Shown here: in pieces, positions 27,437-54,986 of the stretch | Position numbering within the stretch: position 1 is the stretch's first letter | How the letters are laid out: the number at the start of each line of letters is the position of its first letter | Assembly (NCBI RefSeq): GCF_040958095.1 | Contig: NC_091173.1 | Span: forward strand, 19,705,082 to 19,769,081 | Length of the DNA stretch: 64,000 bases | Reading direction: 5' to 3' | Source: Procambarus clarkii | Taxonomy: Eukaryota; Arthropoda; Malacostraca; Decapoda; Cambaridae | Program-made: the position numbers and the translations under genes | Notes under the pieces: model-generated | Told to the model about the DNA's origin: nothing | What the model saw: the letters and a program-made list of their open reading frames with translations, nothing else | Databases searched by the model: none

Positions 27437-27663
27437 CTGGAAAACGCAGGGAAAGGTCTGAAAAGTTTCCTGGAGTCTGTTCCTGGTATCTTGTCTCTCC
27501 CAACATGTCGAGTCTTTGATATCTGCAGAGGCAGAAGATTGCCCTTGGATGTTCAGCGAGGGTGGAGGGGAGGTGATGTGAGCTAGATTCTGGGTACTGC
27601 TGGTCGATCAGCCTTAGAAAATATGACGAGGCTTCAAGAGCACTGTTCTCGTCACCCTCCGCC
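27437..27663 (-). CDS. Candidate exon 3 of the two-Ig gene
   Basis: On the minus strand acceptor TGTATACCAG and donor GTAAGT flank an open segment AEGDENSALEASSYFLRLID...LGETRYQEQTPGNFSDLSLR. Its entry phase (needs two bases from upstream) equals the exit phase of the exon at 31159-31411. Codon use looks coding. No domain recognised. It could instead belong to another gene. Confidence 0.4.
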
Positions 27664-28393
27664 CTGGTATACAGAACATCAATGTGCTGGCGCGCATACA
27701 TACGCAAGCATGCGTGTATACATGCAAAAGCGGGTTAAGTTTAAGAACGCGGACACAAACAGTATAAGAGAAAGAGATGAGAACACTAGATTTAGAGAAA
27801 GACTGGAGAAAGAGAAAACTTTGAGAGAATACTGGATAGTTGTATCAGACCAACCAGGCTGTAGTGGTGGATACGTGGGCCTCAGGCCGGGCTTGGGGAG
27901 TAGAAACTCTCAGAACCCCATTCACCAAGGTATAAGGTAGTATACATAACCTATATTTGCCTGAAACTGATATGTAATATCACGTGACCCCAACAATTCA
28001 CACACACTAGTATATACTTAATATATATTTCTAGCTTGAAGTTTCAGTTTACATTAACTGGTCACGTGTCATGGGTTCATGACACATGGTTCAGACATGA
28101 TGTGTATGTTAAACATTCTTAAACCTTTGTGTCCCGCTCCTAGACGAGGCTCCTGTGATTGCTCTCATTATATTCAATCGTGAGTTTGCTTTCTCCTTCA
28201 GATATTGAATTTGCTTGTTGAAAGTCATTTTAGAATCTATCCGCACTCAGAGATCTCGATATTGTGTAACCCACTAAAGGTCTTGAATGCGTAGGTGGAC
28301 ATGATGCTGAAGCCTTGAGGTATCACAGACGTGATGCTCACCTCGTAGAAGGTGATACCGAGCTGCTAGTTTCCTAGTTCTAAACGTGACCCT

Positions 28394-28395
<2 letters not shown>

Positions 28396-28426
<31 letters not shown>
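28396..28426. repeat. Poly-T tract
   Basis: About 30 T residues directly upstream (on +) of an inverted LINE tail: the reverse of a poly-A end. Confidence 0.85.
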
Positions 28427-28465
28427 CTCCTGCGCGAGGCTCCAAGCCTTTGGCTGGCCTATTAA

Positions 28466-28740
28466 GTGTTACTTGCTTCTGTTTTGCTTAAGCGGAGTAT
28501 GAGTATTTATATCTCCTATGGTCGCTTCAGTAAGATTTTGCCCCATGTGTTTAACAACTTCTTCTGCTCTGTTGAATCTAAGTTGAAATCTTATTGGATT
28601 TGTAACTGTGCACTGTATTAGATAATGTTTCAGTGGTCTATCGGGCATTTCTCCACAGTGCTGACATTTCCTCTCATCTTCTGGAACCTGTAAGCCTATT
28701 TCTCCATGCTCGTGGGTATCCAAACCTGATACGATGTAAG
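28466..28740 (-). mobile_element. LINE 3' end with CxxC zinc-finger tail, inverted
   Basis: The minus strand reads CQHCGEMPDRPLKHYLIQCT, then RFQLRFNRAEEVVKHMGQNL and NTHTPLKQ, the C-terminal CCHC tail of an arthropod non-LTR retrotransposon, with the poly-T tract marking its poly-A end. 5'-truncated. Confidence 0.75.
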
Positions 28741-28889
28741 TGTACTTCTCTTGTTCTACTGCTCCCTTTCATCAAAAATAAGTGGGGACCCCGAGCTGAT
28801 GTTGCCCCTAGTTGAAAATGACCTCGCGTTCACAATTCCACGTTTTAATCAGCAAATTTTAAATGCTGATTTTTTTCTCTTGGTTTTAC

Positions 28890-29095
28890 ATCGCTAACCA
28901 CTTGGCCTGGACGCTAGAGCGACGATCTCGCTTCATACAGGTCGGTATTCAATCCCCGACCATCCAAGTGGTTGGGCACCATTCCTTCCACCCCCCCATC
29001 CCATCCGTAATCCTTATCCTGACCCCCTTCCAGGCGCTACATAGTCGTAATGGCTTGGCGCTTTCCCCCTGATAGTTCCCTCTGTAGCCTATTCA
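28890..29095 (+). mobile_element. tRNA-derived SINE
   Basis: tRNA-like head with GGTCGGTATTCAATCCCCGA (B-box), body AGTGGTTGGGCACCATTCC and end ATAGTCGTAATGGCTTGGCG, CTTTCCCCTGATAG-like. Confidence 0.7.
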
Positions 29096-29279
29096 GGATG
29101 TAATTCCAGGGGGTTCTCAGAAAGGGTCTTTGATGGCAACGCCGCTCTGGATTACCAGGAAAGTGTTTCCAGCGATTACTTGGGGTGAGGTGCCCCCTCC
29201 CCCCCCTCCCCCACATTGTCCTCAGTGATGTCACAACGTTGGAGGGACAAAAACCAGACTGGGAACGAAGCTATCGGTG

Positions 29280-29400
29280 CATAAAAAAAGTAGGATATGA
29301 GAATATTGATGACCAAACCACACACATTAGACATTGGATATGATGATCATCATATCTTCAGCCACGTTATTGTGACTCACCATCTGCATGAAAATATTAG
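29280..29400. repeat. Dispersed repeat, second copy of the 19.8-kb family
   Basis: ATCATATCTTCAGCCACGTTATTGTGACTC is shared with 19965-20000. Confidence 0.6.
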
Positions 29401-29669
29401 TTAATATCTGAAGAGAAAAATTAACATTGGCTGTTTGGAACTAAGAGTCAATTTGAGGAACGAATGTGGTTGACAAGGGAGAACGACGAGGCAGCTGAAA
29501 CCTCGGTTATTAAGGGAATATAGAGAAAGCAAATTGGTTTCTCCTGACAAGTTTAGTTTGGAACCAGCTGGGAAGATCCGTGAATAGTGTAGCGGAGACA
29601 ATTGCTAGAATTGATTCCTTTAATGTCATCCATAATAGGGGCTCCTAAAATAGGCTTGGCTTCGTTCTC

Positions 29670-29930
29670 AACTTACAGTCGGGGATCTCGGGTTCGATTC
29701 TCGGGCCTGACAGAAATGGTTGAGTACGTTTCCTCGGGGGGGGGGGGGGTTAGAAATAGCTTAAGCTACTCTATCCTATCCCTTTAAGATGTATTATTTC
29801 TTGTCTCAATAAATATACTTGAACTTGAAGTACATTTCCTTTCACCTAATTCACCTCTTCACGTCGAGGACCGGGGGCCCCTAAGCCCCGAAATCACCTC
29901 AAGATAACCTGAAGATAGGCATAAATAAGC
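29670..29930 (-). mobile_element. tRNA-derived SINE, partial
   Basis: GGGTTCGATTCTC (B-box) near 29690 and the family end AAGCCCCGAAATCACCTCAA near 29885-29920, with a G run between. Confidence 0.5.
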
Positions 29931-29984
29931 CCCCCTTCCTGGAGTTGGGCAACTGTTGGGGGACTGCTTCCTCGGGAGGGTCAG

Positions 29985-30315
29985 CAGCGCTCGTATGCGC
30001 GCTATGACCAAAAATGGACGTACAGTAATTTGAAATGAAATCGGCTCACGAAAGTGATATACTGTCCCGGTTTCTGTTTGAGTCGTCTGGCTTACTCGTT
30101 AAGGTTAGGAAAGGAAACTTTCAATTAACATTTTTCATGACGTTTTGAAGCTTTAGGAGAATTTCCTGCCCTCCTAACCCACCGGAGGACCCTTATCTTG
30201 CTGTTTTGGAAAAAAAAAATCCAAAATTTATTTTCATTTTTTTTTCCATTTTTCAAATTACGTCCATTTTCGGCCATACTGGAAAACGGCCAAATTCAGA
30301 GGTAATTTGTAAGAG
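29985..30315 (+). mobile_element. MITE-like element, copy A
   Basis: The ends are inverted: GACCAAAAATGGACGTACAG-TAATTTGAAA at the left and TTTCAAATTACGTCCATTTT-CGGCC at the right. The full block recurs in reverse orientation at 47325-47665 and decayed at 60060-60250. Non-coding. Confidence 0.6.
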
Positions 30316-30319
30316 GACA

Positions 30320-30545
30320 GGTGAGGTTTAGCGTCCCCGCGGCCCGGTCGTTGACCAGGCCTCTGGTTGCTGAACTGGTCAACCAGGCTGTTGGACGCGG
30401 CTGTTCGCAGCCTGACGTATGAATCACAGCCTGGTTGATCAGGTATCCTTTGGAGGTGTTTAAGTTCTCTCTTGAACACTTGAGGAGTCGGCCAGTTATG
30501 CCCCTTATGTGTAGTGGAAGCGTGTTGAACAGTCTTGTATTAAGT
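30320..30545 (+). mobile_element. Decapod-type repeat (GCGGCCCGGTC family)
   Basis: TTTAGCGTCCCCGCGGCCCG...CAGCCTGACGTATGAATCAC...GGTATCCTTTGGAGGTGTTT, homologous to 25235-25395 and longer at the 3' end. It abuts copy A of the MITE. Confidence 0.7.
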
Positions 30546-31158
30546 GAAGGAATGATCTGCTGTAACTCTGAATTTGTTCATACAAATATTGTAGGCTACA
30601 ATAGTGAATGAAGAATTTGCATTTTTTAATCCAAGGGTGCTGCTATATTTACTTCTCGCCTGTTATTTAAAGTCTGCATTAAGTAAGGTGACTTTAAATA
30701 TCACCCCTTCATCTCTCATCCTCTAGAAAAAATGCAAAATTCATGAGTATCATTTTGACTTGACACTTCAGGCTCTGAAGAAAAGAGAGGAAGGAAGTCA
30801 TTGAAATACGAGAAAGGAAACTGAGTAACTTTATAGATTTTAATATTTAATGCATTGTAAGTTACATAGTTACAGGGTAGCTAACTGCCGAGAACAAGAG
30901 CGACTGCAAACGCTTTCCACAATGAATCCGTTAAACTAACCGACACGAGGCTTCTTGACACTCTTATCTCCCCCTCGGGACGTGGAGCTGCGAAATAAGT
31001 TGTCAGATGGCGGCACCGTCGCCTAAGACTTGTACGGGGTGATGGACTGAGGCGATGATTACCTCAGGACAGTTATCCTGCCCCCCTTACTCTTCCTCCT
31101 TCACAGAGTGAAGATGGGAGACAGGCTCTTTTGATGTGAGTGGCTGTAGCCTACTTAC

Positions 31159-31411
31159 CCCTTCCTGTCTCCTTCAGACACCAGACGGCGGTAGGCGTGA
31201 ATTTGGATATCAACGATGAGATCGTTGGCGATATCGACGCTAGAGGGTTTAGTCTTGGATGGAGGATGTGGGTCGTCCCGGGGCAGGCAGACAGGCCCGC
31301 CTCTGGGCTTGATCAGGCCTCCTCCATCTTGCAAGAGCACCGACACAGCCACATCTTGCTGGTGGGTGAGACCTCCCCCCAGCCACACCATACTTCTGTA
31401 TACACCTGGTT
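31159..31411 (-). CDS. Exon 2 of two-Ig secreted/surface protein gene
   Basis: Minus-strand acceptor CTACTCCACAG, donor GTAAGT. Entering in phase 1 after exon 1 it reads EPGVYRSMVWLGGGLTHQQD then VAVSVLLQDGGGLIKPRGGP. That completes the second Ig fold begun in exon 1 (LLLQNVQ + EPGVYRSMV mimics the L-x-NV-xx-G-x-Y signature, although the usual Tyr-x-Cys is Tyr-x-Ser). The exon then continues with a Pro/Lys stretch of unknown role. Exits in phase 2. Confidence 0.65.
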
Positions 31412-31659
31412 CTGTGGAGTAGACCACACATTAGTAACATAAGACGCAAGGAATCCTGCGACATACGAGTGCATTTTTTGTTAGTGAAAGATAGTGGAAT
31501 ATTCGAAATGAATTTGTATTCCGTTTAACGAAACCGTTTTACATTACATTATTTTTATGGTGTAGATATCAGCGCGGTCACTATCACAAGAGCTTTTAAT
31601 CATCTAATATATTTGAGTTATATATATTATATCTATATCTAATATATTATATCTAATAT

Positions 31660-31872
31660 ATTTCTCGACCAGGCCTCCTTTTTGTTACACATCCCCAGGA
31701 AGCAGCCCGTAGCAGCTGTCCAACTCCCAGGTACATATTTACTGCTAGATAACAGGGGCATTAGGGTGAAAGAAACATTTTGCCCATTTGTTTCCGCCTC
31801 CACCAGGGATCGAACCCGGAACCTCAGGATTACGAATCCGAAGCGCTGTCCACCCAGCTGTCAGGCGCCTAG
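31660..31872 (-). mobile_element. tRNA-Thr-like SINE, inverted
   Basis: On the minus strand a tRNA-like head (TGGGTGGACAGCGC A-box region, loop with CGT, GGTTCCGGGTTCGATCCC B-box) is followed by the family body ending in CGACCAGG. The + strand counterpart head is at 60490. Confidence 0.75.
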
Positions 31873-32228
31873 CTGACATATACATACAATCATTTACACA
31901 AATACATATACTCATCGATAATCTTTTTATACCACAAGTGATTCAACAAGAGGATCACAACAGTCACTATACAAGACACGTGGCAACAAGGAAGAGAGAC
32001 TTTAGTATTCACTGTGTGACGATGGCTTTTGACAGTCGGCGAGTACATTACGGCCCTTGAAATATTTATACACAGGCTGGAGGAATGGCAAGAGGCCTGC
32101 GAGTACTCTGTTGCCCATTTCAGGCATGATCGTGTGAGAAGGGAAAAGTTCAGCAAGTCCCAGCTGTGTCTGGATACAAGTGCCAGGATAAACAATCCAG
32201 CGGGTTTTCTTCCTTTTGGGGGGTGTTG

Positions 32229-32486
32229 TACATGCTGCTATGGCGGTGTGTCTACTCACAGGATGAGTGGCGCTGCACAATATTGTCACTATAGTGGTGA
32301 ATCCACTCAAAGGATGAGTGGCGCTGCCCAGTACTGTCACTATTGCGGTGTGTCCACTCACAGGATGAGTTTCCCTGCACAATATTGTCACTATAGTGGT
32401 GAATCCACTCAAAGGATGAGTGACGCTGCCCAGTACTGTCACTATGGCGGTGTGTCCACTCACAGGATGAGTGGTGCTGCCCAATA
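32229..32486 (+). repeat. 51-bp tandem repeat, about 5 copies in alternating types
   Basis: Units of about 51 bp (CACTATAGTGGTGAATCCAC...AAAGGATGAGTG and CACTATTGCGGTGTGTCCAC...ACAGGATGAG) alternate, so the true period is about 102 bp. Open frames on both strands come from the period being a multiple of 3. Confidence 0.85.
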
Positions 32487-32489
32487 AAC

Positions 32490-33180
32490 TCGTCCCTCTG
32501 GGCAGAATTAAATTACCATTGTAGAAATAGCATTTCCGTGTCTTGTGGCGCTACCGACTACTGCTTATATGAGTGGCTTGAGCACCTTATAAGGTGTTCA
32601 AATTACTACGGTATGACCTGACTGATGAATACCTTGTGTATTTTTTTGTGGTGGAAGATAAACTTACACAGATCCTCGATCCCAACCTATTTGTACTCAC
32701 GCTTTAATGAATACCACTATAGCCAATGTTTTTTTCTCTCTGACCCCTGGAATCTTTTGTAGAATTATTCCATTTTCTTATCAGAAATTTCATGTTTAGA
32801 TTTATTTATTTTTTTTTACTAATAAAGGTTTATAGTCTACCATTTTATTATTGAAAATGTAATTGAAAGGGCTTTGCGATTTAGGCTCTAATGATAACAC
32901 TTATACCAGAAGGTTAGCCAGTAAGATCAAGTTCGGTAAAAGTTATATGCAAGGCCGGATATGTGTCCCTCAGGCGGCGACAAGTGCCACTCTAAGGCAC
33001 TGCTAGCGACGGGAGACTATACCTATTAACAGTGACTTGACGTCAGCATGTGATTTTAAATATTAAACTAGCAAGAAATATACACACTAAATGGGGCCCA
33101 GTTATTATTTTATCATATCAAATTTTCAGACATATTTATTCAGAGAAACTCACCATGAACTTTTATATAAATGCATTACG
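32490..33180. other. Intron of the two-Ig gene, unassigned
   Basis: AT-rich DNA between the exons at 33215 and 31411. No element recognised. Confidence 0.5.
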
Positions 33181-33214
33181 GAAATGCATTTGATGGACAA
33201 CATTTACATCTCAC

Positions 33215-33845
33215 CTTGAACGTTCTGGAGGAGGAGGCCGGAGTGGAGTTGGTAAGTGTCCTCGGGGTCCAGCTCACTCCCCAGCCTGCTCCACACGGTG
33301 GGTCTGGGGGACTTACCCACCACCGGGGAAGGTACCAGCACGCTTCCTCCCTCTGGCACCGATAAACACGGCGGCAAAGGCACTACCCTGAAGCTTGGCC
33401 GGAAGAATCTAAGGCGGATGGTTTGTCTTGCGATGAGCCGGCTGCTGTGGAGGAGGTTGCAGGCGTATATCCCCGCCAGAGACTCGTCAAATCCCCGGAA
33501 GACTAGGTAGGAGTGGGGCAGAACGAAGCGCTCCTGCACAGTGAAGATCTTAGCGGTGTTGACGTCGACCCGGGCGTAGGGGACGAGGGGTCTGCCGTAA
33601 GGGTTGGTCCAGACCACTGCGTAGGGCGTCCTGCCCGACGGCTGGTTGGCGAAACAGTACAGGAATCCATCCTGATCTTCGCGGATGATCTCGTCAGTAC
33701 CGTTGATGATGCTGAGTTTGGGCAACGGACCGTATCTTCCCATAGGCATAGAACTTCCGTGAAAGCTATCCACGAGGACGCTGAGACAAATAATTGTCAA
33801 ACTGCATGTTCCTACTAAGGTCTTTACGGGCTTCCTGAATACCAT
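33215..33845 (-). CDS. Exon 1 of two-Ig secreted/surface protein gene
   Basis: Start ATG at 33845 (minus), then a hydrophobic signal segment VKTLVGTCSLTIICLSVLVD. Ig domain 1 shows the full set: FLYC, VVW, VLPHSYLVF and SLAGIYAC, with N-glycosylation site NGT. A second Ig domain starts at PPCLSVPEGGSVLVPSPVVG with core W (PTVWSRLG) and is cut by the donor GTGAGA after QNVQ. It then joins the exon at 31411 in phase. The VPHSYL/LPHSYL block and INGT are shared with the four single-Ig genes nearby. A TATA-like box lies about 95 bp upstream. Function unknown; Ig proteins of this size in arthropods act in adhesion or defence. Confidence 0.8.
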
Positions 33846-33935
33846 TGTTGTACAGATTTTCACAGTTTTGACAGCTCTTGTAATAATACTTTCGTATTTC
33901 CAGAGTTTGTAAACAATCTCTATTATAATTATTTC

Positions 33936-33945
33936 CTATATATAT
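33936..33945 (-). promoter_or_regulatory. TATA-like box for two-Ig gene
   Basis: CTATATATAT on the + strand, TATA-type on minus, about 95 bp upstream of the ATG at 33845. Confidence 0.4.
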
Positions 33946-34200
33946 GTCGCATTAAACTTTTTACGTGAAATTATTGCAGAAAAACACTAAATAGATTTAC
34001 GTCATATGGTTAGAACTAAATCACATTGTTTTAGTTCACAGTGTTATTCTTGTGCTCTAAAACAAAAAATTCACTTGGAAATAAGTCGTGAAAGTTTGCG
34101 AGAATCCTGACTACTTGCAGTCCAGATGAAGAGTGAGGTTGTCGCGTGTGGTCACGGGTGAGTCTTTGGCGAGGCGGGAGCAGCACGGGAGGAGCCTGGC

Positions 34201-34572
34201 GTGCGCACGCAGGCACAGCCAGCCCGCGCCATGCACAGGCAGGCACAGCCAGCCCGCGCCATGCACAGGCAGTCACAGCCAGCCCGCGCCATGCACAGGC
34301 AGGCACAGCCAGCCCGCGCCATGCACAGGCAGGCACAGCCAGCCCGCGCCATGCACAGGCAGTCACAGCCAGCCCGCGCCATGCACAAGCAGTCACAGCC
34401 AGCCCGCGCCATGCACAGGCAGGCACAGCCAGCCCGCGCCATGCACAAGCTGTCACAGCCAGCCCGCGCCATGCACAGGCAGGCACAGCCAGCCCGCGTC
34501 ATGCACAGGCAGGCACAGCCAGCCCGCGCCATGCACAAGCAGTCACAGCCAGCCCACGCCATGCACAAGCCT
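34201..34572. repeat. 30-bp minisatellite, about 12 copies, CpG-rich
   Basis: Unit CAGGCAGGCACAGCCAGCCC then GCGCCATGCA, with variants CAGTCA and AAGC. GC-rich island in AT-rich DNA. Several open frames across it on both strands are repeat artefacts. Confidence 0.95.
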
Positions 34573-34579
34573 GTTGGCA

Positions 34580-35640
34580 ATCGTTCAGTTGCAGAATGAT
34601 CAGTTGCCTGCCATATATACATGCCGTAAGCGTCCTCCAACACACCCTATCTTCCTGGAGGGCAAAATTCGGCGTAGCAGTAACCAGGGGACCAGGAGCT
34701 TGTAGCATCTTGGGGAGTCTTAGTGAATGATATGGATGTCTTTGAGTTTAATTAACATCCCGAGGCTCGGTTATCGGTAATACTTGGCAAGCTACATTTA
34801 TAATGTCACCATTTACTGGTTATTTCTTCTTTACTTAATCTAGATAGCGTGATTACTGTTATTCACTTACTAAGGTTTAGAGAAGATGGGGGACTTGTTA
34901 TATAGGAAGATATCTGAAGGAGGGAGGGGTCTTGAGTTTAAGGGAAAAGGTAGGGAAATGAAATGAACTTGATTGGGAGGAGGAAAAAGGATATAAATAA
35001 CATGCGGGGTAAAGGATAGCCACAAGGACAATGAAAATGTATGGTATGGTAGTTTCAACTTGTACTGAGCGAACTCGTGATTTCCTAAAAAGAATCCTTT
35101 AGGATTAGGAAGATTGCAAAGGTAATCTTTGCAAGCTAAGATTAGGATCTTTGCTTGCCCTGCTATGCGAATTTCATAGTTTCTTTTTGTTATATCCTTT
35201 TTTTTAACATTTCTAACCAGTTGTACGAATTTCTGTTCTAAACTGACTTCCCCATTCTTATTCCTTTTGTATCACGGTCTCTTTTTACCAATAAGGTGCT
35301 TCAGATCCTTTGTTATCCACCAAGATATAGCTGAAGAACAACACCAGGTGTCTTGTTACTAACGCTTCGATTAATAAATCCAAGTGTCTTATTTGCCTTA
35401 TTACGAACGTTCATGCATTGATCTTTTGGTTTTAAATTCTTACTAATCATAACTCCCAGATCCCTTTCGCAAAGACAGAGGGTCATACATAAGACAATAT
35501 GTCTAAACTGTAGGCGGAAGCACATACATATATCATGGTTACAATCAATGTTTCAGTGTACGAATATGTAAATAAACTTTCTATTGTGCACTGCCACACA
35601 AGGGCAGGGATTGGTTCATAAGAGATGCACCTTAGAAGTA
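34580..35640. other. Intergenic, unassigned
   Basis: Purine-rich stretch near 34880-35000. About 35330-35480 on the minus strand carries LCERDLGVMISKNLKPKDQC then KTLGFINRS, a decayed reverse-transcriptase piece. Confidence 0.5.
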
Positions 35641-36250
35641 ATATAAATAAAATTGTTCTTCATTCTTTAAAATGGACAAGCAAATTTTGGATAAATTGTT
35701 AGGATGTCGTCCAGAACACCTGAGTCAATAAAATAGTTACACAGTTGGTGGTACAAGAGGCCAGGAGGTCTAAAGTCCTTTACGGTTTCACATTCAACAA
35801 TATAGTGTTCTAGTGAATGCATTAAAGATTTGTCACAGAGTTTACAATCTGAATATTCTGGTAGTGGCTCAACCTCACTAACCTGCCAGATGTGCCTATA
35901 GCCAAGGCGAATTCGCGCAATGACTACATCACATTGTCTGGTTCGGTTACTATGCTGACCATACAAATACCTATTATTACAAAAGTTGGCATAGCTTTTA
36001 ATACTGCAGCTTTCAGGTCTCTGGGCATTTCTTAGTCCTAAATCTGAAGTAATTTCTTCAAATTTATGTTTCTAATAATTGCATTAGATAGTCTAAAGTC
36101 ATAATCAGTGTTTTCTTTCCTGCAAGCCTCATTGGCCAATCGATCTACAAAGTCATGTTTTCCAACTCCATCATGGGATGGGATCCACACAAATTTTTTA
36201 CAATAGTTATAATCATTGGCAAAAATTACATTCCATTTATATTATAAGCT
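35640..36250 (-). mobile_element. LINE 3' end with RNase H and zinc-finger tail, inverted
   Basis: The minus strand reads VWIPSHDGVGKHDFVDRLAN EACRKE (RNase H core), then VVIARIRLGYRHIWQVSE and CKLCDKSLMHSLEHYIVECE, ending FRPPGLLYHQLCNYF. This order, RNase H then CCHC tail, is that of I/Jockey-group non-LTR elements. Broken, 5'-truncated. A related tail is at 39085. Confidence 0.75.
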
Positions 36251-36259
36251 ACTTCAGAT

Positions 36260-37180: not shown

Positions 37181-37186
37181 GGCGTG

Positions 37187-37600
37187 TTAAGATTTCGCCA
37201 CGGCTGTCGAGACAGTAATTATAGACGAGTGAATCTCAGTGTTGTTGAACAGCAACACACAGGTGTAGTCTCCGGCGTATGTGTTACTAAAATGGTTGAA
37301 AATGAGGTAGGAGTGAGGGACATATGTCCCGCCCAGGGAGTACACGTCGCGGTTATTGGCGGACCATCTGGCCACCGTGTCGCCTGTGGAGTTCCGCCAC
37401 TGGACCTGGTACCGGCTCAGGTTATCCGTGGGCCACACCTCCGCCTTGCAGAACACGAAGGCGTTGTCATTGTAGCCAATATCGATGGAGCTGCCGTTGA
37501 CAATGACAGCTTGAGCCAATGAGTTTTGAGGGGGCAGCAAGGTGGTGGAGGATAGCAGGGAGAAGAATAAGACTGCTACAGGGAGGTGCTTGATCTGCAT
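37187..37600 (-). CDS. Single-Ig-domain secreted protein, paralogue b
   Basis: A 137-residue intronless ORF with ATG at 37600. Signal peptide HLPVAVLFFSLLSSTTLL, then one V-like Ig domain: AFVFC (first Cys), YQVQW (core Trp), GDTVARWS, VPHSYLIF and YAGDYTCVLLF (D-x-Y-x-C). Four Asn glycosylation sequons (NGS, NLS, NST, NNT). No membrane anchor or GPI-like end, so probably a soluble secreted protein of about 13 kDa. Clearly paralogous to the genes at 41905, 50366 and 54561 (about two thirds identical over the Ig domain) and to Ig1 of the gene at 33215. Function unknown. Confidence 0.85.
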   Translation of the reverse strand: MQIKHLPVAVLFFSLLSSTTLLPPQNSLAQAVIVNGSSIDIGYNDNAFVFCKAEVWPTDNLSRYQVQWRNSTGDTVARWSANNRDVYSLGGTYVPHSYLIFNHFSNTYAGDYTCVLLFNNTEIHSSIITVSTAVAKS

Positions 37601-37710
37601 GGTTAAAGATCTTTCGTTATATCCTGATGATATATCTTGTTTAGTATTAAGTGGCTGGGGATTTATTGTGAACTTTCGCTGTTCGACTAGTTGTTGTAAC
37701 TCTCGGGTGA

Positions 37711-37925
37711 AGTCTGGCTGTGTTCTATATTATTCTATATTAGTAATGCTAGGCTCCAATTCGTTTATCGTATATATATTAGTCTGGCTGTGTTTTATAT
37801 TACTCTATATTAATAATTCTTTGTTCAAATTAGTTTATCGTAAGTATATGTTAGTCTGGCTGTGTTCTATATTACTCTATATTAGTAATGCTTGGTTCCA
37901 AATCGTTTATCGTATATCCATTAGT
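37711..37925 (+). repeat. 71-bp tandem repeat, 3 copies
   Basis: Each unit starts GTCTGGCTGTGTT and contains CTCTATATTAGTAATGCT and GTTTATCGTA. It sits about 110 bp upstream of the minus-strand Ig gene b, so within its promoter region. Confidence 0.85.
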
Positions 37926-37929
37926 GATC

Positions 37930-38620: not shown

Positions 38621-38689
38621 TATCTTACAGCTGTAGCCAATCACAACGTTGGAATATCGGAGCTCATCCGTTGTCACTTGCCGGATGTC

Positions 38690-38860: not shown

Positions 38861-39084
38861 CTTGTCGCTCCGATTTGAGAAGCGATGGTATTTATTTGTT
38901 TATATTTACCTAAATTTACCCAAAGGCCACTAACTATCTAGTGGCCTCGACGAGGACAGAAAGCCGGCGACTTGTTAAAAGTTCCGCCAATTGTCCTAAT
39001 GATATTTTCTAGCTGGATTTTGGCATTTACGGCTTCAGCGGGTAGGCGGTTCCATCGGTTTATAACCCTTTAGGTGAAAAGATA

Positions 39085-40578: not shown

Positions 40579-40734
40579 CAACCCATACAAACTTGGGGAA
40601 GATTATGAGGTTACCTACAAGAACTACAGGGACGGATCAAGTAATTGTAGAGTTCAAATATACTTTAAACTGGCACGTCTAAAGAGCCTAATGACTGGTT
40701 ATTCAATAACATTTAGCCCAATAATACACAATAG

Positions 40735-40985
40735 TCTCAGTGATGCAGGAGTAAAACACTCGGCCGCTTCACGAGCGCTTTGGCCTGGGTTCGTATCCTG
40801 GCCGGGGGAGGATTGACTGGGCGCCTATCCTTAACTGTGGCCTCTGTTCACCCAGCAGTGAATGGGTACCTGGTTATTAAACGATTTGGCTAGTCCTATT
40901 CCGGGGAAAATAAGGATTAAGGACCTGCCCGAAACGCTATGCGTGCTAGTGGCTGTACAAGAATGTAACAGCTCTTGTATATATA
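40735..40985 (+). mobile_element. tRNA-Val-like SINE (left arm)
   Basis: Head with A-box-like TAAAACACTCGG, CAC in the anticodon position and B-box GGGTTCGTATCC, body GGGGGAGGATTGACTGGGCG, tail CTGCCCGAAACGCTATGCGT and TGTATATATAAATAAA. Confidence 0.75.
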
Positions 40986-41144
40986 AATAAAAAACATAAA
41001 ACAAAAATAACCTAGTTACTTTGTACCTAGTTTACACAGACTGATCATAGTTGAGTATGTCGATACCTGCCACAGGGAATGGTAGTACCACTAGGTGTTA
41101 GTGGTTATTATATTACCAGATCTGGAGGACTTTAACTTCTTAAG

Positions 41145-41345
41145 AGTTCTATGGTGCAGAGGTAAGCACAGTTGAGTCCCAACCAAAAGGTCCCGGGTTC
41201 AAGTCCCGAGGTTGGACAGAAGAGATGGGTAAAGTTTCCTTTCCTTTGATGCTTCTGTTCACCTAGCAGTAAATAGGTACTGTACCTGGGAGTTAGTCAA
41301 CTATTGTGGGTTGCATCGAGGTAAAGTTCAGGAGGCTGACCTAAG
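41145..41345 (+). mobile_element. Second tRNA-derived SINE (left arm)
   Basis: Head ATGGTGCAGAGGTAAGCAC with B-box GGTCCCGGGTTCAAGTCCCG, body CTTCTGTTCACCTAGCAGTA and CCTGGGAGTTAGTC. Confidence 0.7.
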
Positions 41346-41750
41346 TGACCTCGTTAAACCTAACTGTCTTCTCATGTCCCCCGACTCTTGGAAACAGTAT
41401 GTGTTGGATACCAAATAATTCATAATATTTTGTAACAGTTATTTAAAGCTTTTGAGTGATTTCTCAGTAAGACTGAACTGTTTGGAGCATCCTGGGATTT
41501 GACAAGAGATGTACAGGTATAGTTCGGTTATATCTTTGTCACATGTTCATTCACCTCTTTGTCTGTCATGTTCGAGATGGTATCAACACGAGTGATTATG
41601 GCGAGTCTCGTGGCTGTATCTTGTAACACGACCGAGAACAATTTTTTTTTTGCTTATATTATGAGAATTACAGAGCAGAGTACTCTGTACCCTGTGGTAC
41701 AGAACAGAGTGCCACAAAAAGGTTACTAAAAGCTATTTAGTGAAAAAATA

Positions 41751-41756
41751 TTTATT
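41751..41756 (-). promoter_or_regulatory. Polyadenylation signal for Ig gene c
   Basis: AATAAA on minus, 150 bp after the stop codon, at the same place in the 3' UTR as in copies d and e. Confidence 0.65.
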
Positions 41757-41904
41757 AAATATTTAAATACAAATAAATAGAGGAATATTCATAAATTAAT
41801 GTTGAGCGAGATCAACTAGATCAAGGAGCCGTCGATGTCCTGCATCTTCTTGACCCAAGCACCAGCTGGTCTTCAAGCTGCTGTATTATGTTGTGTGGGC
41901 GTTA

Positions 41905-42309
41905 TCACAAGACGGTGATTGTTGACGAGTCAACCTCAGTGTTGTCGAAGAGCAAGACGCAGGTGTAGTCTCCGGCGTACGAACTCAAGAAGCGGTAGAA
42001 GACGAGGTAGGAGTGAGGAACATGGGTGCCAGAGCCCAGGGAATACACAAAGTTGTTATTGTCGGACCATCTGGCCACCGTGTCACCTGTGGAGGTCCGC
42101 CACTGGACCTGGTACTGGTGCAGGTTGCTCGTGGTCGACACCTCCGCCCTGCAGAACACGAAGGCGTTCTCCATGTAGCCAATATCGACGGAGGTGCCGT
42201 TGACAATGACAGCTTGACCCGACGACTGGTGGTGGTGGAGGGTGAGCGAGGCTGAGAGGGAGGCCAGGGAGACGATCACTACGGCAGTCACCAACGTCGC
42301 CTGCATCAT
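41905..42309 (-). CDS. Single-Ig-domain secreted protein, paralogue c (left arm)
   Basis: A 134-residue intronless ORF; start is the first of two adjacent ATGs (MMQATLVTAV...), because no upstream Met is conserved. Signal peptide to about SLSASLTL, a His triplet (LHHHQSS), then one V-like Ig domain: NAFVFC, YQVQW, GDTVARWSDNN, VPHSYLVF and YAGDYTC. One sequon (NGT). No anchor. It differs from copy d by only a few residues (G/R after SS, Y/N in FYRF, T/S near the end). The upstream promoter differs from that of copies d and e, with its own TATAAATA. Likely soluble effector or opsonin-like; function not known. Confidence 0.88.
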   Translation of the reverse strand: MMQATLVTAVVIVSLASLSASLTLHHHQSSGQAVIVNGTSVDIGYMENAFVFCRAEVSTTSNLHQYQVQWRTSTGDTVARWSDNNNFVYSLGSGTHVPHSYLVFYRFLSSYAGDYTCVLLFDNTEVDSSTITVL

Positions 42310-42467
42310 AGTGCTCTTGTTGGGGTCTTTGCCTGTTAGTCTTGCAAACTGATGCTGAATTTCTCTCTTCTTTAGGCTGGATAAGCTATTGTTTACGTTG
42401 TAATATGAGACCTGATGTCTTTGTTGAGCTTGCGACCTTACTGGGTATAGCAGTGGACCTCCACCTG

Positions 42468-42475
42468 TATTTATA
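42468..42475 (-). promoter_or_regulatory. TATA box for Ig gene c
   Basis: TATAAATA on minus in GGTATAAATACAGG, 159 bp upstream of the start codon. Confidence 0.65.
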
Positions 42476-44735: not shown

Positions 44736-44739
44736 TCTT

Positions 44740-45440: not shown

Positions 45441-45449
45441 CTGATGTAA

Positions 45450-47320: not shown

Positions 47321-47324
47321 CCCC

Positions 47325-47665
47325 CTCTTACAAATTAGTCTGAATTTGCCCGTTTGTCCGTATGGCCGAAAATGGAGGTAATTTAAAAATGAAAAATAAT
47401 TGAAAATAAATTAGTATTTTTTTCTAATAGCAGCAAGTTAAGGGTCCTTTGGTAGGTTAGGAGGGCAAGAAATTCTCCTAAGGTTTCAAAACGTCATGAA
47501 AACGGTTAATTGAATGTTTCCTCTCCTAACCTAACCGAGTAAGCCGGAGGACTCAAAACAGAAAACGGAACTGTACGCCACTTTCGTAAGCCGATTTCAT
47601 TTCAAATTAATTCCATTTTTGGCCATAGCGCGCATACGAGCGAAAAGCGACCTTATTTTAAGAGG
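47325..47665 (-). mobile_element. MITE-like element, copy B (inverted)
   Basis: Reverse complement of 29985-30315: CTCCATTTTCGGCCATACGG-like start, AAAACAGAAAACGGAACTGT, GTAAGCCGATTTCATTTCAA and GGCCATAGCGCGCATACGAG end. Confidence 0.65.
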
Positions 47666-47777
47666 ACGGGTTGATAAGTGTCCCGGGAGCCTTTCCACCA
47701 TCACCCACGGAATGGGTATTGGGTGCATAATAAATAAATGAATGTAAATCTCGTTGGTCAGTTGTACTTGGTGTCAG

Positions 47778-47979
47778 CCCGCCAAACACACACCGAAACT
47801 ACGACGTTGGTACAACGTTCGAATAAGTTTTAACACCTCCTAACCAGTTATAACAACCAATATAGTAAGTTGTAACAACGTTCTAATACGTCATAAACAC
47901 GTTAAGCCAAGATGTAACAACTTTATTACAAGTTGTAAAAAGCGGAAAATAGAGACAGTTTCGGTTTGTGTTTCCAGGG
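47778..47979 (-). mobile_element. 202-bp MITE-like element, copy 2 (inverted)
   Basis: Reverse complement of 1289-1490, equal length: CCCGCCAAACACACACCGAA at one end and GTTTGTGTTTCCAGGG at the other. Confidence 0.7.
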
Positions 47980-47984
47980 AGCCA

Positions 47985-48689
47985 CACTAAAGTTGGTTAC
48001 ATATCTTTGTATCAATAATTATCCATAACGCGTATACACATTTTAAGAATTCTCTAATTTGTTTATTGTGAAGGAGTCTAATGTGAGTGAAGAAGGCCAG
48101 TGAGAAAGACAGTTGTTGAGAAGATTGTCTTCTGTGAGGTGATTTACGCTACTGATAGTAGCACGCGTGTCTTAATTCATAAATTAAAACAAATCAGCTT
48201 CAAAGATTACAAACATGAGGTGTTGTTATCGCTGATAACAATATTATCGCTCTGGGCAGGTCGGGTCATCTTGAGAGTTCTGTGAATGTAGACAGTCACT
48301 TTATCAATAGTGTGGTGCTTGACGCCTCACATATTAACATGGAAAGTGCCTTTATAATAATTATATTAATATAATATTATTCTTATAATCGAAAAAGTGA
48401 CACATTTTACATTACATTTATTGAAACCTGATTGAGTGCAGCAATATTTTTTTTTTTTATGTAAGGCAGCTAATTATATATATTTTTTTCAACGTCGATT
48501 AGATTTTCTTATCACAAATATTCATGGTTATAATATCTTAATTTTGATGAACGCATTGAGTAGTGTCCAGTTTGAAAAGTATAATATTATTAACTTCAAA
48601 GTCTACGAACTTTAATAACTTGACTCAAGAGCTGTCTATCTTGTCTTCTACCTGCCCTCCTTAACCCATGACTGCTGAAGGAAGCTGTA
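47985..48689. other. Intergenic, unassigned
   Basis: AT-rich. No element recognised. Confidence 0.45.
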
Positions 48690-48950
48690 AACACTTATGA
48701 CGAAATCTCTCAGAATTTTTGGAAAAGGACAAACTTAGTCCTAATATTAAAAATGATGGATTGACAGACGACACTAAATTACAGATCATTGTCACTGGTA
48801 ATGACACTGATAATGATCTCCCGTGTAAAGTGGTGGAGAACGTAATCAGGCTAAGAACAGTGAGGCATCTGGAGAGGACCAACAATGTGACAATAGGGTA
48901 TCATGGATTTAGAAAGGGAAAGTCATCGGGTCTGACAAACTTGTGTTGAA
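48690..48950 (+). mobile_element. LINE reverse transcriptase fragment
   Basis: HGFRKGKSSGLTNLC matches the HGFxxGRSCxTNL motif of LINE reverse transcriptases. The upstream 60 codons are open but diverged. Confidence 0.65.
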
Positions 48951-48989
48951 TGGCAAGGTTACTAAAATAACTAACAGGGTGGCTCATCC

Positions 48990-50028
48990 CGCTAACGTGA
49001 TGAGCATGGGGTGCACAGTACCTTATCGCTAACAGGATGAACATAGGGTGCACAGAACACTACACGATCGCTAACAGGATGAGCATGGGGTGCACAGAAC
49101 ACTACACTACCGCTAACATGATGAGCATGGGGTGCACAGAACACTACACTACCGCTAACATGATGAGCATGGGGTGCACAGAACACTACACTACCGCTAA
49201 CATGATGAGCATGGGGTGCACAGAACACTACACTACCGCTAACAGGATGAGCATGAGGTGCACAGAACACTACACTACCGCTAACAGGATGAACATGGGG
49301 TGCACAGAACACTACACTACCGCTAACAGGATGAGCATGAGGTGCACAGAACACTACACTACCGCTAACAGGATGAGCATGGCGTGCACAGTACACTACA
49401 CTACCGCTAACAGGATGAGCATGGCGTGCACAGTACACTACACTACCGCTAACAGGATGAGCATGGGGTTCACAGTACACTACACTACCGCTAACAGGAT
49501 GAGCATGGGGTTCACAGTACACTACACTACCGCTAACAGGATGAACATGGGGTTCACAGTACACTACACTACCGCTAACAGGATGAACATGGGGTTCACA
49601 GTACACTACACTACCGCTAACAGGATGAGCATGAGGTGCACAGAACACTACACTACCGCTAACAGGATGAGCATGGGGTTCACAGTACACTACACTACCG
49701 CTAACAGGATGAACATGGGGTTCACAGTACACTACACTACCGCTAACAGGATGAACATGGGGTTCACAGTACACTACACTACCGCTAACAGGATGAGCAT
49801 GGGGTTCACAGTACACTACACTACCGCTAACAGGATGAACATGGGGTTCACAGTACACTACACTACCGCTAACAGGATGAGCATGGGGTTCACAGTACAC
49901 TACACTACCGCTAACAGGATGAACATGGGGTTCACAGTACACTACACTACCGCTAACAGGATGAGCATGGGGTTCACAGTACACTACACTACCGCTAACA
50001 GGATGAGCAAGGGGTTCACAGTACACTA
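48990..50028. repeat. 42-bp minisatellite, about 25 copies
   Basis: Unit GCTAACAGGATGAGCATGGG then GTTCACAGTACACTACACTACC. Variants (GTGCACAGAACAC, AACATG) are grouped: one type on the left, the other on the right. Long open frames on both strands are artefacts of the 42-bp period. It ends about 200 bp upstream of the Ig gene d TATA box. Confidence 0.95.
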
Positions 50029-50226
50029 GAGGCCGCTGATTCAGTAATGTGACGTAAGACACGCGAGCAAGGTAAGTAGATGATTATCGCATGTCCAACT
50101 TTACGAACATGATACCTGTGTGTCGACAACTCCCGGGAGGATGAAGCTGTACGGACACACACGTAACGAGGGTAGTTCGTGTATTTATGATTACCGCAGC
50201 ATGAAAACGTTTCTTCATTTTGGGGC

Positions 50227-50234
50227 TATATAAA
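50227..50234 (+). promoter_or_regulatory. TATA box for Ig gene d
   Basis: TATATAAA, 139 bp upstream of the ATG at 50366, followed by GCTGCTGGCAG, which is shared with gene e. Confidence 0.7.
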
Positions 50235-50365
50235 TGGGCCCTGCTGCTGGCAGCATTCATTAGCAATCCACAAGCTGTCGAGCACATTAGCTTACCTTTA
50301 CGAAGATACTTTTAACATTAAAGCTACCAAGTAAATTCTTTATACACATTTCTCAACTGCGAAAA

Positions 50366-50791
50366 ATGTCAAGACATCAGAGCACCATGATGCAGGCGAC
50401 GTTGGTGACTGCCGTAGTGGTCGTCTCCCTGGCCTCCCTCTCAGCCTCGCTCACCCTCCACCACCACCAGTCGTCGCGTCAAGCTGTCATTGTCAACGGC
50501 ACCTCCGTCGACATTGGCTACATGGAGAACGCCTTCGTGTTCTGCAGGGCGGAGGTGTCGACCACGAGCAACCTGCACCAGTACCAGGTCCAGTGGCGGA
50601 CCTCCACAGGTGACACGGTGGCCAGATGGTCCGACAATAACAACTTTGTGTATTCCCTGGGCTCTGGCACCCATGTTCCTCACTCCTACCTCGTGTTCAA
50701 CCGCTTCTTGAGTTCGTACGCCGGAGACTACACCTGCGTCTTGCTGTTCGACAACACTGAGGTTGACTCGTCAACAATCAGCGTCTTGTGA
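50366..50791 (+). CDS. Single-Ig-domain secreted protein, paralogue d (right arm)
   Basis: Intronless ORF of 141 codons from MSRHQSTMMQ, or 134 from the conserved MMQ at 50387, which is the start shared with copy c. Signal peptide TLVTAVVVVSLASLSASL, then a V-like Ig domain with NAFVFC, YQVQW, GDTVARWS, VPHSYLVF, YAGDYTC. Ends TISVL. Soluble secreted protein expected. TATA box and AATAAA (50940) complete a compact transcription unit. Nearly identical to copy e over the coding region although their promoters differ, and nearly identical to copy c across a 1.7-kb arm. Role unknown; expansion and secretion suggest defence. Confidence 0.9.
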   Translation: MSRHQSTMMQATLVTAVVVVSLASLSASLTLHHHQSSRQAVIVNGTSVDIGYMENAFVFCRAEVSTTSNLHQYQVQWRTSTGDTVARWSDNNNFVYSLGSGTHVPHSYLVFNRFLSSYAGDYTCVLLFDNTEVDSSTISVL

Positions 50792-50939
50792 TGACGGCAA
50801 CACAACATAATACAGCAGCTTGAAGACCAGCTGGTGCTTGGGTCAAGAAGATGCAGGACATCGACGGCTTCTTGATCTAGTTGATCTCGCTCAACATTAA
50901 TTTATGAATATTCCTCTATTTATTTGTATTTAAATATTT

Positions 50940-50945
50940 AATAAA
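50940..50945 (+). promoter_or_regulatory. Polyadenylation signal for Ig gene d
   Basis: AATAAA 149 bp after the stop codon. Confidence 0.65.
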
Positions 50946-51354
50946 TATTTTTTCACTAAACAAGTTTTTTAGTAACCTCCCTGTGATACTCTGCTCTGTA
51001 ACCCTCTGTAATATAAGCAAAAAAATTAAATTGTTCTCGGTCGTGTTACAAGATACAGCCACGAGACTCGTCATAATCACTCGTGTTGATATCATCTCGA
51101 ACATGACAGACAAAGAGGTGAATGAACATGTGACAAAGATATAACTGAACTAGACCTGGGCACCCCCTATCTCTTGTCAAACCCCAGGATGCTCCAAACA
51201 GTTCGGTCTTATTGAGAAATCGCTCAAAAGCTTTAAATAACTCCTACAAAATATTATGATTTATTTGATATCCAACACATACGGTTTCCAAGAGTCGGGG
51301 ACATGAGAATACAGTTAGGTTTAACGAGGTCACTTAGGTCAGCCTCCTGAACTT

Positions 51355-51545
51355 TACCTCGATGCAACCCACAATTGTTGACTAACTCCTATGAACAGTA
51401 CCTATTTACTGCTAAGTGAACAGAAGCATCAAACGAAAGGAAACTTTACCCCACCTCTTTTGTACAACTTCGGGACTTGAACCCGGGACCTTTTGGTTGG
51501 GACTCAACTGCGCTTACCTCTGCACCATAGAACTCTTAAGAAGTT
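51355..51545 (-). mobile_element. tRNA-derived SINE (right-arm copy)
   Basis: Reverse complement of the 41145-41345 SINE; B-box region CGGGACTTGAACCCGGGACC. Confidence 0.7.
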
Positions 51546-51694
51546 AATGTCCTCCAGATCTGGTAATATACTAACCACCAACACCTAGTGGTACTACCAT
51601 TCCCTGTGGCAGATATCGACATACTCATACCACTCAGTCTGAGTACACGATGTACAAAATAACTAGGTCATTTTCCTTTTAGGTATTTTATTTA

Positions 51695-51945
51695 TATATA
51701 CAAGAGCTGTTACATTCTTGTAAAGCCACTAGCACGCATAGCGTTTCGGGCAGGTCCTTAATCCTTATTTTCCCCGGAATACGACTAGCCAAATCGTTTA
51801 ATAACCAGGTACCCATTCACTGCTGGGTGAACAGAGGCGACAGTTAAGGATAGGCGCCCAGTCAATCCTCCCCCGGCCAGGATACGAACCCAGGCCAAAG
51901 CGCTCGTGAAGCGGCCGAGTGTTTTACTCCTGCATCACTGAGACT
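51695..51945 (-). mobile_element. tRNA-Val-like SINE (right-arm copy)
   Basis: Reverse complement of the 40735-40985 SINE; B-box region GGATACGAACCCAGG. Confidence 0.75.
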
Positions 51946-52379
51946 ATTGTGTATTATTGGGCTAAATGTTATTGAATAACCAGTCATTAGGCCCTTTAGA
52001 CGTGCCAGTTTAAAGTATATTTGAACTCTACAATTACTTGATCCGTCCCTGTAGTTCTTGTAGGTAACCTCATAATCTTCCCTAAGTTTGTAAATGATGT
52101 CTTGTAGCTTTCATACTCTATATATGACGGACCACTTAGTAACACATAGTTCTTAACATGAACCTGTCCAGAGACTTATGATAAGGGAACCCGTATAAAT
52201 GCAAACATACCTAAGGATTTTATTTAATAATTGTATAAAATCGCAGTTACAACTGCGTTAGAACGAAGTTACAACGAATGTTACAACGAATATAACACTC
52301 GGGTAGTTGTCAGGGTAGAAGTAGATCTGTCCATCGATCTAAGAAGTTTTACCAAACAGACAATACCAGAAGAAAGGCT

Positions 52380-53480
52380 GATCTAATTAGACGTTACACC
52401 AGAAGTAAGGAAACAACTAGAGGAGCTAAATAAGAGTAAAGCCACAGCCTTGGTCTTACCATTTACAGCAAAAGAGGTAGCTGCATATTTGTGTCGAAAT
52501 CTTGCTATTGTTTTCATCTCGCAAGAAAGTGGGACACTACCAGAAATTTGGAAAACGACTGATGTATAAGAAAAGATCAAGGAAAAAGCCCATAAAATAT
52601 AGACACGTATAACTGACTTATATCAACTTTTAAGAGGCTAGAAAGTATTGTTCGAAGGAAACACAATTCAGTTGAATTTTGTCTCCTAACATCAAGATTA
52701 CTTTAGTGTGGGATTAAATCTTCTTTGTTTACATAGTCTTCCCGGCTTGGCTTTTTCTATGATTACTTTGTTAAATCCTTCTTGATGACAAGATGACGAA
52801 CTCAAACAACAGAGAGAGGGTTGTGAAGACTGCATACTTGAGCATCGCAAAACTTTCGACACTGTTCCCCAGAAGAAAAAACTTTACAGACTGCAGAATC
52901 AGTTTGGTATATCGCGATAAGTCCTCAATTGGATGAGAGAGTACTTCATAGGTAGGAGGCAAGGTGTCATAGTGAGAAGGGAATGATAGCGTGAAGATAG
53001 GTAATCAGTACCACAAGGGGTCCATATCAGGTCCTATCCTATTCCTGATATAAAGACCAACTTCGTAGAGGAATAAAGTTTGTTCACATCAGTGTGTGCG
53101 AATGATACATAACTTTTAGATAAAAATGAGAATATAGGAGGATCTTGATACACTGCAGAATCAACGAGAAAATCTCTTCAGAGTTGGTCTAAATCTTTGC
53201 TTCTGGTTTGGTGTCCGCCTTAACACCTATCAACCCATCGAGGGTTATTAAGGCCGCCACAATCGCTGTCCAACCAGCAAGAATACTTCAACCCTGGACA
53301 TAGTCCAAGACAAAACTCTGCGTATATTCTGTACACCAAGAAGAGGGATGCACCTCTTGATGTGTATCTCCCTTGCTACTGAAATGTAACGTAGACAAAT
53401 GTACATGTATGAGGATCGGAAGAGGAAGAGAGGACTCGAGGTAGAGTTCTGAATGAAAAAGACGGATCTTTCGTATATTA
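52380..53480 (+). mobile_element. Decayed LINE reverse transcriptase
   Basis: In order: PEVRKQLEELNKSKAT, LPEIWKTTDV, KTFDTVPQKKKLYRLQNQFG, WMREYFIGRRQGVIV, then a PRGPYQVLSYS-like GPLLF block and ARILQPWT near 53280. This is the reverse transcriptase order of a non-LTR element, with many stops and frame changes. Old copy. Confidence 0.75.
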
Positions 53481-53489
53481 ACTGTCGAA

Positions 53490-54420
53490 ATACGTTCATA
53501 ATTATTACTTTCATATATTTTTTACAGCAGAACGGAACAAAAAACTTTTAGCATAAATATTAATGGATAATTTTTCCTGGTTTTACATTACAAATTTGCT
53601 GAGTACATTTATTAGATACGTTTTCGAAATACTGAAGAATGAATAATTGAATAGGTGTCGGGTATGGTGCCTTTAGTATGAGTGCATCAGTAAATATCAC
53701 ATCCATCACTGATTAGTTCAGTGCATTAAGCGTGTATACATTAAGAGGTGAATCTTACGTATCTGTGTGTATAGATTTCCGAGATTAGTTAAGTCCTGGA
53801 CTAGATTCAGGAGTAAAGTGTACCTGCCGGCAGACTCGGCCAGCTATTATGTTGCCCTTAATAACTCTATAAGAGTTTGATAGGTGTTAAGCCCAACACC
53901 TAACCAAACTTACATGATCCTTCACAGTGTTTCTCTTAGTGTATGTGACTTGTATTTTGAACCTAACTCTTACAGTTCAACTGTGTGTCTGTGAAAACTT
54001 CTGTGAAACTTAAATGTGTCAAAACAGTTTTAATATTGCAGTCTATAACGGTATCCATTAATGTCAAGAAAAAATTTCATATTAGAAATAGCACAGAACG
54101 AAAATGGAAGACACGTGTTACTTATGTTTAGTAATATTCTGGACAAGAAATGTTTGATCTGTATGTGTGTGACGCTACTCTTGTGAGTTCCCAAACTGCA
54201 GCAGCACCCGGGTTATCTGCTCCGTAAAGTGACTCAACTCGCGCGAACAAGATAGCGGGATGATTATCGCATGTCTAGTTGAGCGAACATGGTACGAGTA
54301 TGTTAACGACTCCTGGCACGACGTATGGACACGTATTCATTAAGAGTACTTCATGACTACATCATTATTTCGTCGCGAAAACGTTTGTCCATTTTGTGAG
54401 AAATACATGTTATAAATTGC
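53490..54420. other. Upstream region of Ig gene e
   Basis: No repeat or gene recognised to about 54225. From 54255 to 54420 it resembles the upstream region of gene d (GATGATTATCGCATGTC, AAAACGTTTNTNCATTTTG), so it is promoter sequence. Confidence 0.55.
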
Positions 54421-54423
54421 AGC

Positions 54424-54431
54424 TATAAATA
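54424..54431 (+). promoter_or_regulatory. TATA box for Ig gene e
   Basis: TATAAATA, 137 bp upstream of the ATG, followed by GCTGCTGGCAGAACTCATAA as in gene d. Confidence 0.7.
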
Positions 54432-54560
54432 TGGGCAATGCTGCTGGCAGAACTCATAAGCAATCCTCACACTGTACTGAGTACGGCAGCTCTGCCACAA
54501 AACTTGAGAGCATCAGACTTACGGAGAAAGTTCTATATACACATTTCTCAACTGTGAAAA

Positions 54561-54986
54561 ATGTCAAGACATCAGAGCACCATGATGCAGGCGACGTTGG
54601 TGACTGCCGTAGTGGTCGTCTCCCTGGCCTCCCTCTCAGCCTCGCTCACCCTCCACCACCACCAGTCGTCGCGTCAAGCTGTCATTGTTAACGGCACCTC
54701 CGTCGATATTGGCTACATGGAGAACGCCTTCGTGTTCTGCAGGGCGGAGGTGTCGACCACGAGCAACCTGCACCAGTACCAGGTCCAGTGGCGGACCTCC
54801 ACAGGTGACACGGTGGCCAGATGGTCCGACAATAACAACTTTGTGTATTCCCTGGGCTCTGGCACCCATGTTCCTCACTCCTACCTCGTCTTCTACCGCT
54901 TCTTGAGTTCGTACGCCGGAGACTACACCTGCGTCTTGCTGTTCGACAACACTGAGGTTGACTCGTCAACAATCAGCGTCTTGTGA
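54561..54986 (+). CDS. Single-Ig-domain secreted protein, paralogue e
   Basis: Same 141-codon ORF as gene d with one residue change (FYRF for FNRF) and only about five silent or near-silent base changes across the coding region. Signal peptide, V-like Ig domain (NAFVFC, YQVQW, VPHSYLVF, YAGDYTC) and no membrane anchor. Its promoter and distal 3' UTR are only moderately similar to those of gene d, so the coding match looks homogenised. AATAAA at 55155. Function unknown, probably the same as its siblings, perhaps with different expression. Confidence 0.9.
   Translation: MSRHQSTMMQATLVTAVVVVSLASLSASLTLHHHQSSRQAVIVNGTSVDIGYMENAFVFCRAEVSTTSNLHQYQVQWRTSTGDTVARWSDNNNFVYSLGSGTHVPHSYLVFYRFLSSYAGDYTCVLLFDNTEVDSSTISVL

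Follow-up and report, generated by a model that had tools for sequence, protein, structure and literature searches.

Intronless single-Ig genes of Procambarus clarkii: a duplicated family and its tentative place in immune recognition

Among arthropods, immunoglobulin (Ig) domain proteins with proposed immune roles include Dscam1 and hemolin, which carry several to many Ig domains and are encoded by spliced genes. Soluble Ig-bearing families are also found in molluscs (FREPs) and protochordates (VCBPs), in which the Ig domains are paired with fibrinogen or chitin-binding domains. Here we describe a family of single-Ig genes first seen in a 64,000-nucleotide stretch of the genome of the crayfish Procambarus clarkii (the window: contig 24, 19705082-19769081, within a 4.03-Gb genome of 2308 contigs). 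These resemble Dscam1 and hemolin as arthropod Ig proteins and FREPs and VCBPs as candidate soluble ones. However, they encode one domain in an intron-free coding region, and no fibrinogen or chitin-binding domain is seen in them.

A further system from the same species is PcLec3, which combines an Ig and a C-type lectin domain. Its Ig domain is reported to have bound hemocytes and, by a figure legend, bacteria and peptidoglycan (PGN), lipopolysaccharide (LPS) or lipoteichoic acid (LTA) (PMC4944128). PcLec3 is comparable to the predicted single-Ig proteins in its crayfish origin, its signal peptide, and its single Ig domain, and differs from them in the added lectin domain (PMC4944128). Judged by primer positions, genomic DNA exceeds the cDNA by about 250 bases across the PcLec3 Ig region, which therefore holds an intron.

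The single-Ig genes and their two-Ig relative

The window holds four single-Ig genes, named here A37, B42, C50, and D54:

37187..37600, minus strand: A37, 137 amino acids, A branch, single-exon open reading frame (ORF)
41905..42309, minus strand: B42, 134 amino acids, B branch, single-exon ORF
50387..50791, plus strand: C50, 134 amino acids, B branch, single-exon ORF with an in-frame upstream ATG at 50366
54582..54986, plus strand: D54, 134 amino acids, B branch, single-exon ORF
42470..42475, minus strand: TATAAA upstream of B42, by eye
41751..41756, minus strand: AATAAA downstream of B42, by eye
50227..50234, plus strand: TATATAAA (TATA-like) upstream of C50, by eye
50940..50945, plus strand: AATAAA downstream of C50, by eye
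54424..54429, plus strand: TATAAA upstream of D54, by eye
55155..55160, plus strand: AATAAA downstream of D54, by eye

A sequence-only reading had described these as four intronless genes with a signal peptide, one V-like Ig domain and no anchor, and the ORFs, conserved blocks and hydropathy agree with it. The blocks YQVQW, GDTVARWS, VPHSYL, and AGDYTC occur in all four proteins, each of which has exactly two cysteines. Every N-terminus is hydrophobic, with a Kyte-Doolittle mean of 2.07-2.34 over its best 15 residues, and past the leader no stretch exceeds 1.11 in any of the four, so that no anchor is seen. Identity to B42 is 66% for A37, 97% for C50, and 98% for D54. When B42 was used as a query the other three matched at E values of 4.4e-81, 7.3e-80, and 2.6e-46, hence their likeness is not due to chance. 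As for the TATA promoters proposed by the same reading, TATA-like boxes read by eye lie 166, 160, and 158 bases upstream of the ATG in B42, C50, and D54, but none as clear was found for A37. The layout of TATA box, ATG, and AATAAA suggests that these genes lack introns in their untranslated regions.

Searches of the whole genome with B42 and A37 recovered at least 31 intronless single-Ig copies, a lower bound set by the search method. The local expansion is therefore real and larger than first seen, extending over two contigs. Contig 24 carries seven copies, the four of the window plus three at 19803337-19813004. The other 24 form an array on contig 46 (16444069-16534847), mostly spaced by about 3 kb and with one on the minus strand; array copies are 80-88% identical to A37. 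Reading frames are intact in 28 of the 31 copies. The three broken ones all belong to the array: one is interrupted by a TAG, another lacks a start and has a stop upstream, and the third is frameshifted. The 28 intact copies have a hydrophobic N-terminus (1.60-2.34) and nothing later above 1.11, and they carry two cysteines (27 copies) or three (one copy). The next genome matches had E values of 0.48 or worse, and no further paralogue appeared at E below 0.47.

The only other relative found in the genome search (E 2e-7 to 1e-2) is a gene with two Ig domains that adjoins the contig-24 cluster:

33215..33845, minus strand: exon 1, signal-like leader, first Ig domain, and part of the second
31159..31411, minus strand: exon 2, remainder of the second Ig-like stretch and what comes after
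27437..27522, minus strand: possible exon 3, fitting in phase by eye only and otherwise unsupported

Spliced at GT/AG sites, exons 1 and 2 form a continuous frame of 294 residues, which upholds the earlier description of an intron-bearing gene; the exon at 27437-27522, from which the cluster had been given its start, is phase-compatible by eye only. The first Ig domain is contained entirely within exon 1 and is 28-32% identical to the single-Ig proteins. The gene is single-copy in the genome search, since exon 1 as a query found itself and the 31 single-Ig copies and exon 2 found only itself. It is highly probable that these genes constitute an intronless single-Ig family of at least 31 copies spread over two contigs, and that the single two-Ig relative lies next to its contig-24 cluster.

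Repeats occur around several of these loci. A tandem repeat with a 42-base unit, in about 25 copies, occupies window positions 48989-50028 and ends some 200 bases before the C50 TATA box, and a long frame is open across this repeat on both strands. Just upstream of A37, a 72-base repeat is present three times (37711-37925), and similar repeats, along with long TA runs, lie upstream of array genes. Other long minisatellites, with 30-, 36-, and 52-base units, are found at 34202-34567, 1912-3042, and 59275-59952. A gap in the array holds a 1002-residue open frame that is retroelement-like in look (L059, contig 46, 16514000-16521000).

Domain identity and growth of the family

The proteins display the landmarks of a V-like Ig domain, namely the cysteine pair, the tryptophan, and the D/G-x-Y-x-C motif. 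C53, W70, Y115, and C117 were invariant when 14 of the 31 copies were aligned with the first domain of the two-Ig protein, and AGDYTC was invariant or nearly so; outside the alignment, the tryptophan is replaced by leucine in two intact array copies, L037 and L038. No general Ig model of Pfam scored above its cut-off for the five proteins scanned, and general Ig matches among 15 members were weak. A37 reached 21.6 bits against V-set_CD47 (PF08204, cut-off 21), and 7 of the 15 members matched this model at E up to 1 (best 1.9e-4). We do not take these proteins for CD47, because A37 gives the one marginal match and no hydrophobic stretch follows the leader in the 28 intact copies. The likeness is that of a generic V-set, without the membrane part. 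At E up to 1 the Sp38 Ig domain had matches in 13 of the 15 members aligned, the best of them at 0.012. An Sp38/ZPBP origin, suggested by these weak matches and a general likeness, is not supported, with scores of 13.2-14.6 bits for the five proteins against a cut-off of 23.1.

When the genome was searched with PF07354, one sub-threshold match appeared elsewhere and none on the single-Ig genes, and none of 14 control genomes matched. PF08204 gave five matches elsewhere, three of them above cut-off, and missed A37. Since A37 passes by direct scan, genome profile searches are insensitive here. In the PDB the best E values were 0.0065 (two-Ig protein), 0.021 (B42), and 0.042 (profile), all to generic Ig or unrelated structures, and none of three proteins matched NCBIfam, a prokaryote library. 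A viral origin was dismissed, as none of 61 matches to two peptide patterns in viral contigs encodes a relative. Judged by titles and the start of abstracts, no open-licence PubMed Central paper among the matches listed deals with the family, and passages of PMC13286009, PMC3547057, and PMC6165390 are not about it. The proposal that these genes fall outside recognised families thus holds within the libraries searched. The family is possibly undescribed; its proteins may already be catalogued as uncharacterised in crustacean protein databases.

The following features bear on how the copies multiplied:

40586..42317: left arm of an inverted duplication, with B42; matched pieces 91-97% alike
50379..52092: right arm of the inverted duplication, with C50; matched pieces 91-97% alike
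34870..36071, minus strand: retroelement-like ORF fragments adjoining A37, in the order of the contig-46 array unit, by eye

Duplication was both tandem and inverted, and the 5′ third of the B subgroups is as gene conversion would leave it. In three pairs of B subgroups, residues 1-31 differ by 0-1 synonymous changes, whereas residues 67-134 show a synonymous divergence (dS) of 0.43-0.52, a difference that gene conversion explains better than selection does. The array unit consists of one A-type gene and the retroelement-like ORFs also found beside A37, in identical order by eye, and about 100 bases near 35148-35245, beside A37, match three array loci at 87-88%. Upstream DNA is shared by C50 and D54, by L012 and L014, and by A37 and the array; that of B42 has nothing in common with the other loci compared. 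A retrocopy origin is not favoured, given these shared upstream regions and the TATA boxes of the B genes themselves.

Both branches and the two-Ig gene lie on contig 24, which points to this contig as the birthplace. The family would have arisen or first grown there, and later an A-type gene, together with the retroelement debris flanking it, would have been amplified into the contig-46 array, making the array secondary.

Immune recognition and the alternatives

The products may act as soluble binding proteins of the hemolymph or of an epithelial surface, in which case their most likely task would be the recognition or opsonisation of microbes. Copy number would raise the dose, and loop differences would broaden binding. 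The genomic setting agrees with this in part. Two genes, in each of which an exon for a glycine-rich leader is paired with one for a WAP domain (E 1.8e-6 and 1.6e-6 for WAP), lie in the window on the minus strand (56678-57281 and 61314-61977) and are of crustin type. Two further places of this type follow on contig 24 at 19772770 and 19780462, one of which contains stops. All four sit between the two contig-24 Ig subclusters, which counts in favour of an immune role, and the crustin query also gave six matches on contigs 41, 44, and 79.

Selection was assessed with codon models on 28 of the 30 loci fetched (L032 and L035 were dropped), collapsed to 24 distinct sequences; omega was tested against a fixed value of 1, with a fixed tree and kappa from a five-value grid. 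Omega was 0.54 for all 24 sequences (p 4.9e-5) and 0.25 for the six of the contig-24 B branch (p 3e-6), indicating purifying selection on the latter. Pairwise counts, made for 11 of the 28 sequences, gave ratios of 0.51-0.62 between branches, 0.43-0.61 between B subgroups, and 0.53-0.88 for A37 against four array copies; closer pairs, with few changes, ranged from 0.10 to 1.86. Fisher tests on six of these counts returned p values of 0.02, 0.008, 0.047, 0.08, 0.83, and 0.29. The pairwise B counts are milder, so the B omega of 0.25 depends on the model and on conversion. Positive selection is not established by the 13 nonsynonymous changes against 1 synonymous at residues 32-66 of one pair (p 0.29), nor by the comparison of L017 with L018 or L024, in which ratios of 1.7-1.9 derive from only 2 synonymous changes.

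Several results weigh against an immune role. For the 18 sequences of the A branch (A37 and the array), omega was 0.83 (p 0.40), indistinguishable from neutral. The tests hence reject neutral decay, which would have spoken against the earlier immune interpretation, on the contig-24 B branch, and on the A branch they do not. In the B 3′ half the ratio is 0.40-0.50 in three pairs, with no sign of positive selection. The nearness to crustin genes noted earlier is true of contig 24 and fails on contig 46, home of 24 of the 31 copies, where the crustin query had zero matches. Kappa-B sites were also sought in the 1000 bases upstream of the two-Ig gene and of 13 single-Ig loci out of the 30 fetched. 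Strict sites were absent from 13 of these 14 regions, L014 having two against 0.1 expected. Looser sites numbered 0-4 against 0.5-2.5 expected, the excess lying mainly at L012-L014. Regulation through kappa-B is set aside, as no consistent excess runs across the 14 regions. Finally, the PcLec3 locus on contig 4 is absent from the single-Ig family matches at E up to 10, so that its binding data serve as an analogy only. An immune role for the single-Ig products, which we argue from context and analogy, is accordingly somewhat doubtful, if possible.

Concerning PcLec3 itself, its primer IGEXF matched exactly at two places on contig 4 (a reversed-pattern control had 8 matches at up to 2 mismatches). 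Primers ExF and RealF were exact next to both matches, IGEXR next to one of them, and three of the seven primers tried were in neither 3-kb locus. Together these results agree with P. clarkii or a close relative as the source, for which the IGEXF matches by themselves would be modest evidence. The two places (L055 and L056, at 44503647 and 44513592) are opposed copies of the Ig-start exon about 10 kb apart, which could reflect a gene duplication or an assembly artefact.

Of the alternatives, largely passive amplification survives best. Here the contig-24 B genes would be functional and the contig-46 array a recent, drifting by-product of unequal exchange between retroelement-flanked units. The near-neutral A branch, the 3 broken copies among 24, the two intact ones that have lost the tryptophan, and the L017 ratios, slender as their base is, are all consistent with drift. 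Against it, 21 of the 24 array copies keep open frames. This is weak evidence in young copies: in simulation, 5-6% of frames remained without stops at 0.25-0.28 changes per site and 65% at 0.03, so intact frames are telling for the A-B distance and little so for the array. We regard this explanation as quite possible, though short of probable.

It is unlikely that the single-Ig proteins derive from exon 1 of the two-Ig gene, or of its ancestor, and bind or block the two-Ig protein or its ligand as a soluble partner or decoy. The position of that gene beside the cluster, its standing as the sole other relative, and a first Ig domain confined to exon 1 would all fit such a descent, but identity is low, and its near upstream DNA matches none of the 13 single-Ig loci, the sole upstream match being distal retroelement-like DNA.

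Small secreted proteins encoded by tandemly expanded genes are also typical of reproductive and secretory tissues, and the weak likeness to the Ig domain of the sperm protein Sp38 would suit a seminal, egg-coat, cuticle or other secretory product instead of an immune one; yet the Sp38 scores fall well below cut-off and the PF07354 genome search, insensitive as it is, did not find these genes, and we consider such a role improbable.

The weakest possibility is a soluble repertoire of lone V-like domains, antibody-like without splicing or rearrangement, in which a shared leader precedes a varied later half where the ligand-facing residues would be placed; 23 of 25 variable residues in the B branch do lie at positions 61-134, but the low synonymous change in the 5′ part means that conversion accounts for much of this pattern, and we deem it very unlikely.

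Soluble immune recognition, joined to the growth history proposed above and taken whole, is put forward as a tentative account. Should the products prove to be expressed in hemocytes or hepatopancreas and to bind microbes, they would represent an arthropod family of soluble Ig proteins separate from both Dscam and the Ig-lectins, in or near a species that is farmed and in wide use. Regardless of role, these genes show clearly how an intronless Ig gene family has grown through duplication, conversion, and amplification into an array, and selection differs between its two branches.

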